Source: Gemmatimonadota bacterium (GTDB taxonomy: Bacteria; Gemmatimonadota; Gemmatimonadetes; Gemmatimonadales; Gemmatimonadaceae). Taken from it: a stretch of 64,000 nucleotides of DNA. The translations under genes and the position numbers were made by a program. Positions 62,175 to 64,000 of the stretch are shown piece by piece. Positions within the stretch are counted from its first letter, which is position 1, and every line of letters starts with the position of its first letter. Where the stretch lies: assembly GCA_003134685.1 (NCBI GenBank), contig PLCA01000002.1:335966-399965 (forward strand). Direction: 5' to 3'. The notes under the pieces were generated by a model. The model saw only the letters and a program-made list of their open reading frames with translations. It had not been told where the DNA came from and searched no databases.

Positions 62175-62645
62175 ATGATCCGTGAAGGCGAACAGGCACC
62201 CAATTTCTCGCTTGAGGCGGACGACGGAACCACCGTAACCCGCGATTCCCTGGCGGGAAAGAACGTCGTCCTCTTCTTCTATCCGAAGGACAACACGACC
62301 GGCTGCACGCAGGAAGCGTGCGATTTTCGCGACGCGTTTCCGCGATTCGGGAAGATCGATGCCGTGGTGATCGGAGTGAGCCCGGATGGTCTCGAGTCGC
62401 ACCGGAAATTCAAGAAGAAGTTCCAGCTCCCCTACCTGCTCCTGGCAGACGAGAAGCACGAGCTCGCCGACAACTTCGGCATCTGGAAGGAGAAATCCAT
62501 GTATGGGCGCAAGTACATGGGCTTCGAGCGCACCACGGTGATCGTCGATCGCAAAGGGCGGGTCGCGCGCATCTTTCCAAAGGTCAAGATTCCCGGGCAC
62601 ATCCAGGAAGTGGAAAAGACTGTGCGTGGGCTGCATAATACCTGA
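62175..62645 (+). CDS. bcp: Thioredoxin-dependent peroxiredoxin Bcp
   Basis: 156 residues from the ATG at 62175 (GGAG 8 nt upstream). The peroxidatic cysteine is in KDNTTGCTQEACDF (Cys44) and the alpha-helical resolving cysteine four residues later (CTQEAC). FKKKFQLPYLLLAD and YGRKYMGFERTTVI follow. It reduces peroxides with thioredoxin, in the cytoplasm. Confidence 0.94.
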   Translation: MIREGEQAPNFSLEADDGTTVTRDSLAGKNVVLFFYPKDNTTGCTQEACDFRDAFPRFGKIDAVVIGVSPDGLESHRKFKKKFQLPYLLLADEKHELADNFGIWKEKSMYGRKYMGFERTTVIVDRKGRVARIFPKVKIPGHIQEVEKTVRGLHNT

Positions 62646-62672
62646 CTTCGGAACCTACAAAGGGGACAAGAC

Positions 62673-62855
62673 ATGGCAGGGGCGACACTCAGGAACCAAG
62701 TGAGGATCATCGCAAACGAAAAGAGAATACTCCGGAACCAGAGACAGCACGCGGCGATAATCCGCAATCAACGCAACATAATTCGGAACCAGCAGGCGAT
62801 TATCAAGAATCAGAAGAAGATCCTGGCGACTCTGGGCAGAAAGCTCGCGAAATAA
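62673..62855 (+). CDS. 60-residue coiled-coil protein with Asn in every d position
   Basis: AAGGGG lies 8 nt upstream, so it is well translated. The protein is almost all coiled coil: asparagines at 8, 15, 22 and 32, 39, 46 (seven apart, one three-residue insert) with isoleucines four residues after each, giving heptads of the form IxRNQxx. In trimeric autotransporter stalks such Asn-at-d layers bind anions in the core. It is very basic (about 15 Lys/Arg), with no signal peptide, so it may bind nucleic acid instead. I do not know the family. Confidence 0.6.
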   Translation: MAGATLRNQVRIIANEKRILRNQRQHAAIIRNQRNIIRNQQAIIKNQKKILATLGRKLAK

Positions 62856-62883: not shown

Positions 62884-63213
62884 CTAGCGCGCGTCGATTA
62901 CCAGGTCGATTGCGCTGGTGTAGAATCGCCAATCTGCGATCTCCTTGTCGACCGCTCCCCTTCCCGCGGTCGTAAGCTCATAAATCCTCGCGATCCGATT
63001 ATTCGTGGTCGTTCGCCAGTAGGAGTTCAACCAACCACGATTCTCGAGTCGATGGAGGGCGGGGTAGAGAGATCCCTGCCCGATGCTGAACGCGCCCTGC
63101 GACATTTGTCGAATGCGCTCGCTGATACCCCAACCATGCACGGGTTCGAGCGCCAGCGCCTTTAGAATCAGCAGATCCAGCGTGCCCTGCATGACATCTA
63201 CGGTTTGTGGCAA
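62884..63213 (-). CDS. PadR-family transcriptional regulator
   Basis: 109 residues from a TTG at 63213 with AGGAG 9 nt upstream; ATG at 63192 (MQGTLDLL) is the alternative. The winged helix is clear: GTLDLLILKALALEPVHGW, then GSLYPALHRLENRGWL and the wing. The short C terminus gives the PadR-s1 subfamily size. PadR proteins repress detoxification or transport genes. Its target is not adjacent, unless it controls the barrel protein to the right. Confidence 0.92.
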   Translation of the reverse strand: MPQTVDVMQGTLDLLILKALALEPVHGWGISERIRQMSQGAFSIGQGSLYPALHRLENRGWLNSYWRTTTNNRIARIYELTTAGRGAVDKEIADWRFYTSAIDLVIDAR

Positions 63214-63382: not shown

Positions 63383-64000
63383 ATGATGCCCAAAAGAGCA
63401 ATGCGATGGTTGATTCTCGTCGCGATCTGCGCCTCGTCCGCGAGCGCTCAGACGATCGACGACGGAATCATGATGCCGAAGCGAACGCTGAGCGTGGGCG
63501 TTCTCTACGCCCACGACAGTTGGGATCATTATTGGGAAGGATCTCTGAAGCGAACGAACGGGAACATCGGCACGCTGACGACCGAGAGCATTACGTGGGT
63601 CGGGGGATACGCCATCACCGACAGGCTCGGCCTCATTGCGAGTCTGCCCTACATCCGGACCCACGCCAGCCAGGGCGTGCTGCACGACCTGAGCGGCCGT
63701 CAGGATCTGACACTCGCCGCGAAGTTCAAGCTTCTCAGCACCGGCCCCGGCAGGTATGGCACGTTCAGCGCGTTGGCCGAGGCCACGGGCGCTATTCCGA
63801 CGAGTGACTACACTCCGGACTTTTACCCGCTGTCCATTGGGACCGCGGGCCGTCGCGCGACCGGACATCTCATGATGAACTTCCACTCCAACTCGGCGTG
63901 GTTCGCCAACGCATCCGCTGCCTACATGTGGTGCGCCAATGTGAGGCTCAATCGGAACTCGTACTACACCGACGGTCAGTTGTACCTGACGAATCAAGTC
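63383..64000 (+). CDS. Outer-membrane barrel protein, N-terminal part (3' end outside window)
   Basis: An open frame runs 206 codons from the ATG at 63383 to the window edge with no stop. Its start is a signal peptide (MRWLILVAICASSASAQ). After it come alternating strands: TLSVGVLYAHDSWDHYW, ITWVGGYAITDRLGLIASLP and YGTFSALAEATGAIPTSDYT, the pattern of the transporter/MetA-type porin family. It is divergent from the PadR gene. Substrate unknown. Confidence 0.6.
   Translation, partial: MMPKRAMRWLILVAICASSASAQTIDDGIMMPKRTLSVGVLYAHDSWDHYWEGSLKRTNGNIGTLTTESITWVGGYAITDRLGLIASLPYIRTHASQGVLHDLSGRQDLTLAAKFKLLSTGPGRYGTFSALAEATGAIPTSDYTPDFYPLSIGTAGRRATGHLMMNFHSNSAWFANASAAYMWCANVRLNRNSYYTDGQLYLTNQV

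Follow-up and report, generated by a model that had tools for sequence, protein, structure and literature searches.

A family of small predicted coiled-coil proteins with asparagine core layers, linked to one PadR subfamily in Gemmatimonadales

What kind of protein consists of one asparagine-layered coiled coil and nothing else? The question is raised by an open reading frame at 62673..62855 (+) of the window, the whole 64,000-nt stretch of Gemmatimonadota DNA that we analyzed. Its translation is MAGATLRNQVRIIANEKRILRNQRQHAAIIRNQRNIIRNQQAIIKNQKKILATLGRKLAK, with coordinates exact in the ORF listing, and its assignment as a 60-aa all-Asn-layer coiled-coil protein draws on this translation, a family alignment and an AlphaFold2-predicted helix. 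The chain carries Asn8, 15, 22, 32, 39 and 46 at spacings of 7, 7, 10, 7 and 7, which implies a single 3-residue insert between Asn22 and Asn32. The insert creates a decad, a 10-residue unit (residues 22-31, NQRQHAAIIR; 62736..62765, +) that amounts to a 3-residue stammer; its extra core position is occupied by His26, and the family alignment revealed the same feature in most relatives. An earlier note on this DNA had described six IxxNQxx heptads with one 3-residue insert. The six asparagines and the insert stand, but IxxN and NQ each occur only five times: Thr5 replaces Ile at -3 of the first Asn, and one motif has NE. The note's description of a very basic, free-standing chain was borne out by a computed net charge of +14 in 60 aa and by the lack of any further domain in Pfam and NCBIfam. 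Profiles from both collections, followed up to E 10, gave no match except a chance Pfam glycosylase (E 4.4), and visual inspection of the N-terminus (MAGATLRNQ) showed no hydrophobic stretch of the signal type. Among 200,000 composition-preserving shuffles, a six-Asn chain with gaps of 7 or 10 arose in 14, five IxxN motifs in 136 and five NQ in 14. Conservation of the pattern among relatives is stronger evidence than any such shuffle test.

Several features mark 62673-62855 as a real gene. A ribosome-binding-like site, AAGGGG (62660..62665, +, read from the sequence), lies 7 nt ahead of the ATG, and such sites precede many family members. The 27 nt upstream of the ATG are identical in the orthologue of genome G014 (comparison with L015). 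Between the window gene and this orthologue, which is 95% identical, we counted synonymous changes at 5 of 40.2 sites and amino-acid changes at 4 of 139.8 sites. The window genome (G000) also encodes a 50-aa paralogue (contig C5:358050-358196; L002, L071), made entirely of heptads without the decad and with no PadR gene adjoining; the G000/G014 paralogue pair differs at 7 of 29.0 synonymous and 4 of 121.0 amino-acid sites. Together with relatives in three phyla, the ribosome-binding-like site, the synonymous bias and the paralogue argue for a gene.

The earlier note had treated the protein as a lone oddity and proposed a profile search for relatives. Relatives were indeed found, and they form a family, so far unnamed, that spans Gemmatimonadota, Myxococcota/Deltaproteobacteria and Planctomycetota, with lengths of 43 to 197 aa. 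The coiled-coil gene was present in 11 of 99 related genomes and in 13 of a sample of 395 from the phylum. Our genome collection held 18 loci, of which 12 were from Gemmatimonadetes, five from Deltaproteobacteria/Myxococcales and one from Planctomycetota. In the phylum of G408, matches occurred in 9 of 377 genomes (seven real, two DNA-repeat artefacts); in the phylum of G410, they occurred in 4 of 392, with L050 and L059 real, L061 another protein and L060 unclassified. Candidates L055 and L056 were dropped as tandem DNA repeats, L060 showed no repeat-like frame in a follow-up scan, and L061 was dropped because its protein looks secreted and has an IATN-type repeat. The L061 protein (G1007, Planctomycetota) carries this long repeat behind an apparent N-terminal hydrophobic stretch; its Asn repeat resembles that of adhesin stalks and belongs to a different family. 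One true member, in G1199, was detected only via its PadR. A 58-aa protein from G037 is a short chain bearing the decad of the long family, NQKKLDxI. Common ancestry and convergence are both compatible with the short and long families, and the similarity across phyla could be convergent. A phage origin was considered and rejected, as tblastn of phage records with the L031 homologue found no relatives; a plasmid origin fared the same way in tblastn of plasmid records with L031 and with the window protein. Viral contigs contained no relatives of either the short or the long form. A literature search, not exhaustive, returned no description of a small all-Asn-layer coiled-coil family.

We analyzed the spacing in 29 proteins, comprising the window protein and 28 relatives (L055, L056, L060, L061 and the near-identical orthologue L003 were left out). 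Asn-to-Asn gaps were 7 in 163 cases, 10 in 61, 14 in ten, 17 in four, 5 in two and 11 in one; because the proteins were selected via search matches, these counts describe the family and are no blind test. Four residues after Asn, heptads have Ile (155 of 163) and decads have Leu (59 of 61, or 59 of 63 with a slightly wider motif); at +7, decads had Val or Ile in 58 of 61. The earlier assignment of Ile to a and Asn to d thus holds for the window protein, with Ile at -3 for five of its six Asn, and for the family, with Ile at a in the same 155 heptads. Length differences between aligned members were mostly whole heptads. Long members mostly alternate gaps of 7 and 10, giving a 17-residue unit. 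Successive units inside some proteins share DNA identities of 0.80-1.00, which indicates that unit duplication contributes to the repeats. At L063 (7756-8157, -), decads stand back-to-back (10+10), the second with NG for NQ, in one of the most overwound stretches of the family.

The periodicity of the long members points to a buried stripe. In the four tested, Asn and hydrophobic residues peak at one period, 3.395-3.425 residues per turn, and the Asn signal at 3.5 residues per turn is almost nil. A single period common to both is what a buried stripe requires, and it counts for a coiled coil. If the helix has 3.63 residues per turn, ideal geometry would give a 17/5 repeat a supercoil pitch of ~80 A, versus 147 A for heptads. 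The long members' period of 3.40-3.43 is near 10/3 residues per turn, the presumed lower periodicity limit for coiled coils according to passages of the OMP100 stalk report (PMC4786415). A predictor that assumes heptads only would tend to miss the 17-residue repeat.

We utilized AlphaFold2 to predict single-chain structures from family alignments. The window protein was predicted as one helix spanning residues 2-59 (mean pLDDT 95.3), and the 144-aa L028 homologue as one helix spanning residues 2-143 (pLDDT 94.8). On a straight helix, the Asn/hydrophobic stripe of the long members would wind around the axis; a flat membrane-surface helix is therefore unlikely for them, and the stripe is most naturally read as a supercoil. 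There is good support for the helix and the coil, and the sequence pattern argues strongly for a coiled coil in which Ile occupies a and Asn occupies d. With moderate confidence we predict a parallel trimer, by analogy with characterized Asn-layered trimers; anion binding within the Asn rings is putative, and the same analogy supports it moderately to weakly. Passages of one report describe Asn-d layers of the [I/V]xxNxxx type in trimers as holding chloride, with each extra layer reducing stability, and a GCN4 trimer with two such layers as forming under crystallization conditions only and not in solution (PMC12933892). In the OMP100 stalk structure, a 3-residue insert beside Asn-d layers is described as forming a decad that includes a short 3-10 segment, and a construct holding five Asn-d layers between GCN4 adaptors melted at 91 C (PMC4786415). 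Metastability of Asn-d rods is thus not certain, because this construct is very stable.

One of the closest known likenesses lies in adhesin stalks of the OMP100 type, which share with our family [I/V]xxN heptads, consecutive Asn-d runs and a decad beside them (PMC4786415). The family differs from such stalks in its Gln after Asn, in an Asn pattern that covers nearly the whole chain and in the many decads of its long members. Unlike trimeric autotransporter adhesins, the 60-aa ORF has no membrane anchor, head or signal, and it does not qualify as a secreted fibre. A profile search of solved structures gave no significant match to any trimeric adhesin stalk or other homologue. LINE-1 ORF1p offers a further parallel: passages of PMC5940361 describe a trimer that contains a stammer, binds chloride at an Asn-d layer and shows functional metastability. 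It differs in being a larger, mammalian RNA-binding protein with one Asn-d layer in 14 heptads, so that the comparison concerns only how such a protein might work (PMC5940361). The N-terminal coiled coil of YbgF/CpoB (2wz7, 2xdj) likewise forms a helix rich in Asn and Gln, in which NQYQLNQVVERQ resembles a decad; the profile match (E 0.046) is not significant as homology. YbgF/CpoB is a periplasmic trimer joined to a TPR domain, and the window chain has no TPR. In the profile library, the best match was phrog_24169, a 45-position phage profile of unknown function (E 8.7e-8 for the L030 homologue and 0.0021 for the window protein), with just ~20 residues aligning, within the repeats.

Downstream of the coiled-coil gene, in a tail-to-tail arrangement 28 nt from its stop, lies a PadR-family regulator with a TTG start (62884..63213, -; Pfam PF03551, E 2.5e-19); the pairing and a tree assign it to the PadR subfamily that accompanies the coiled-coil gene. 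A tail-to-tail PadR occurred in 14 of 19 Gemmatimonadota loci, at stop-to-stop distances between -35 and +28 nt; no PadR adjoined the gene in the other five (L026 and L071, both the paralogue, and L076, L078 and L079). Within the genus, a PadR at E<=1e-30 was found in 6 of 19 genomes, exactly the six that carry the coiled-coil gene. Across the order (288 genomes searched), the best 15 PadR places all had the gene tail-to-tail (15/15), and the next 16 loci examined had it in none (0/16), with L096, L100 and L101 cut short by nearby contig ends. In the tree, the linked PadRs all lie to the same side of a branch supported at 100/98. Position 42 was Phe in 15 of 15 linked proteins versus Leu in 16 of 16 others, and position 74 was Ile in 13 and Leu in 2 of the 15 linked proteins versus Arg in 9 and Glu in 4 of the 16 others. 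These results demonstrate that the coiled-coil gene is strictly linked to one PadR subfamily in Gemmatimonadales.

Other neighbours in Gemmatimonadota were less constant. A peroxiredoxin gene (AhpC/TSA; 62175..62645, +; Pfam PF00578, E 1.1e-37) lies 27 nt upstream; it is probably incidental, because among the loci checked by blastp it was common only to the very close relative G014. Divergent from the PadR is the start of an exported, outer-membrane-like protein (63383..64000, +), recognized from its ORF and from L111 matches, where visual inspection gave the start codon and the outer-membrane character; it had no Pfam match to E 1. On this far side of the PadR, an outer-membrane-like gene is followed by a PAP2/haloperoxidase-like gene in the window's own genome (L111), beyond the window, and in L015, L016, L025 and L112; in L019, L022 and L023, a protein matching Alginate_exp or its relatives is found instead. 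The PAP2-family protein (~541 aa; L111:4202-5824, L015:7563-9188, L112, L016, L025) carries the signature K-x6-RP...SGH...SRxxxxxHxxxD, which is common to haloperoxidases and acid phosphatases, and it matched VCPO_2nd only at E 0.25. Upstream of the coiled-coil gene, L016, L017, L022:4259-5974, L023:1109-2659 and L112 encode an FAD protein. Its bearers are genus relatives plus one family relative, and both proteins tested matched Pfam Trp_halogenase. The one checked for WxWxIP, the motif expected of Trp_halogenase-type proteins, did not have it. The PAP2 and FAD proteins may hint at a halide theme among the neighbours, which we treat as a lead only.

A 198-aa His-rich membrane protein with no Pfam or NCBIfam match is encoded at L023:4674-5267, L078, L079, L016 and L025, and in some loci it is among the genes beyond PadR. 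Its gene comes immediately after the coiled-coil gene, on the same strand, in L078 and L079, both of which lack PadR. As a universal partner it was rejected: the order yielded it in 24 of 287 genomes, and the window genome was not among them. The link is loose, because in 25 places examined the coiled-coil gene lay within ~1.5 kb at just five distinct loci (L116, L131, L132, L136/L139 and L138).

In Myxococcota/Deltaproteobacteria, the neighbour was a transporter. An NTT-HEAT-type transporter gene lies downstream on the same strand in eight of nine loci (L027, L029, L030, L031 and L062-L065; not L028). Six of the nine encode a small cNBD-like protein, related to that of L029, between the coiled-coil and transporter genes, and in L064 and L065 the genes of the coiled coil and the transporter group abut or nearly do so. 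Scans of the transporter proteins from L029, L030, L031, L062 and L064 detected HEAT or cNMP-binding domains; the N-terminal part, where no NTT profile reached threshold, was named NTT from the domain order and the published NTT-HEAT-cNBD architecture. In the conserved gene group of these eight loci, a TonB-receptor gene lies divergently upstream in four. In the planctomycetal locus L032, a TLC/NTT gene lies divergently next door (TIGR00769, E 6.7e-12, below cut-off; Pfam TLC, E 3e-10, above cut-off), and L070, also from Planctomycetota, had none among the neighbours probed. NTT-HEAT was rejected as a universal partner, since the query had no match in six of six Gemmatimonadota genomes, the window genome included; hence no single partner is common to all phyla. 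NTT-HEAT-cNBD nucleotide-transporter fusions, the neighbours of our long homologues, have been described, as have adjacent cNBD genes (PMC5381601). The word 'coiled' is absent from the main text of that report, so a coiled-coil partner gene is not described there (PMC5381601). The PadR and NTT gene links are both new.

From these observations we propose, with moderate confidence, that the protein is a conditionally folded homo-oligomer, most likely a parallel trimer with anion-binding Asn layers, working as an accessory either to a PadR regulator or to a transporter. The single amphipathic helix would fold only on self-association or with a partner, giving a left-handed coiled coil whose core alternates Ile and Asn layers, a parallel trimer being the likeliest form. 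Small anions such as chloride or nitrate may be coordinated by the Asn rings at d and would offset the charge of +14 per chain. Since a trimer loses stability both from Asn-d layers and from stammers, the rod should be metastable and would assemble as the anion level changes or a partner binds. In Gemmatimonadales, the protein would be a dedicated tail-to-tail partner, probably modulating its PadR or the adjoining outer-membrane/PAP2-type genes. In Myxococcota and relatives, the long version, first in an operon-like group, would probably be a cytoplasmic accessory rod of the NTT-HEAT(-cNBD) transporter. These neighbourhoods suggest, weakly to moderately, that the protein acts as an accessory of a regulator in one phylum and of a transporter in the other.

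The composition of the helix face could also fit a higher-order assembly, in which the wide face (Asn at d, Ile at a, Gln at e and Leu/Ile at b) packs at least five helices, or filaments, around a polar lumen. Gln occupies e in 156 of 163 heptads, b is Leu, Ile, Val, Met or Ala in most, and the pairs a+b (Ile-Ile/Ile-Leu) and d+e (Asn-Gln) are conserved. Adhesin stalks have Thr at e; Gln at this position and a mostly hydrophobic b count against an adhesin-like trimer core and fit a larger assembly. For the short family, the top PDB profile hit was the 36-residue peptide entry 6wl1, which points the same way but is not significant (E 0.048). In long members, however, b is often Ala, and the equivalent decad residue is Asp in 45 of 61. 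Because of these Ala and Asp residues, b is not a consistent core position, and a alone is strictly hydrophobic; we regard such an assembly as unlikely, though worth weighing against the trimer.

It is also conceivable, though rather doubtful, that the helix does not self-assemble and instead docks on a partner, either PadR (Gemmatimonadota) or the HEAT repeats of the NTT protein (Myxococcota). The strict PadR pairing, the subfamily residues F42 and I74 and the NTT-HEAT neighbour in eight of nine loci would all suit a hetero-complex, but one uniform rule for chains of 43 to 197 aa suits self-packing better than docking on different folds. A basic binder of polyanions (DNA, RNA or polyphosphate), of the small nucleoid-protein type, seems improbable. 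The window protein's charge would favour it, as would the net charges of +9 to +15 across all 29 proteins. However, conservation resides in the core Asn, Ile and Gln, whereas the charged f and g positions vary. The earlier note had also raised a known nucleoid-protein family as an alternative, and neither a named nucleoid family nor a defence family was matched in Pfam, NCBIfam or PADLOC. Least credible by far is that the frame is not a gene, or is a decaying selfish repeat without function: occurrence is patchy across the related genomes and the phylum and some long members have near-identical DNA units, but per-site synonymous change exceeds amino-acid change in both the orthologue and paralogue pairs, many members have ribosome-binding-like sites, and the gene is linked to PadR.

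The window protein, then, is probably no random reading frame but an assembly partner sensitive to ions. More tentatively, the family may represent a new class of soluble anion stacks: free-standing rods with an Asn ring per repeat, built from Ile-heptads and Leu-decads, the long ones overwound near 3.40 over >100 residues, whose anion- or partner-driven assembly would tune PadR in Gemmatimonadota and NTT-HEAT in Myxococcota. Asn-d layers and stammers have each been reported to destabilize trimers, and these natural chains combine both almost throughout, under a clean rule of Ile in heptads and Leu in decads. The proteins are small, soluble-looking targets for asking how far a coiled coil overwinds and whether stacked Asn rings give an anion-switched protein, and the strict pairing with one PadR subfamily offers a direct genetic handle on function.
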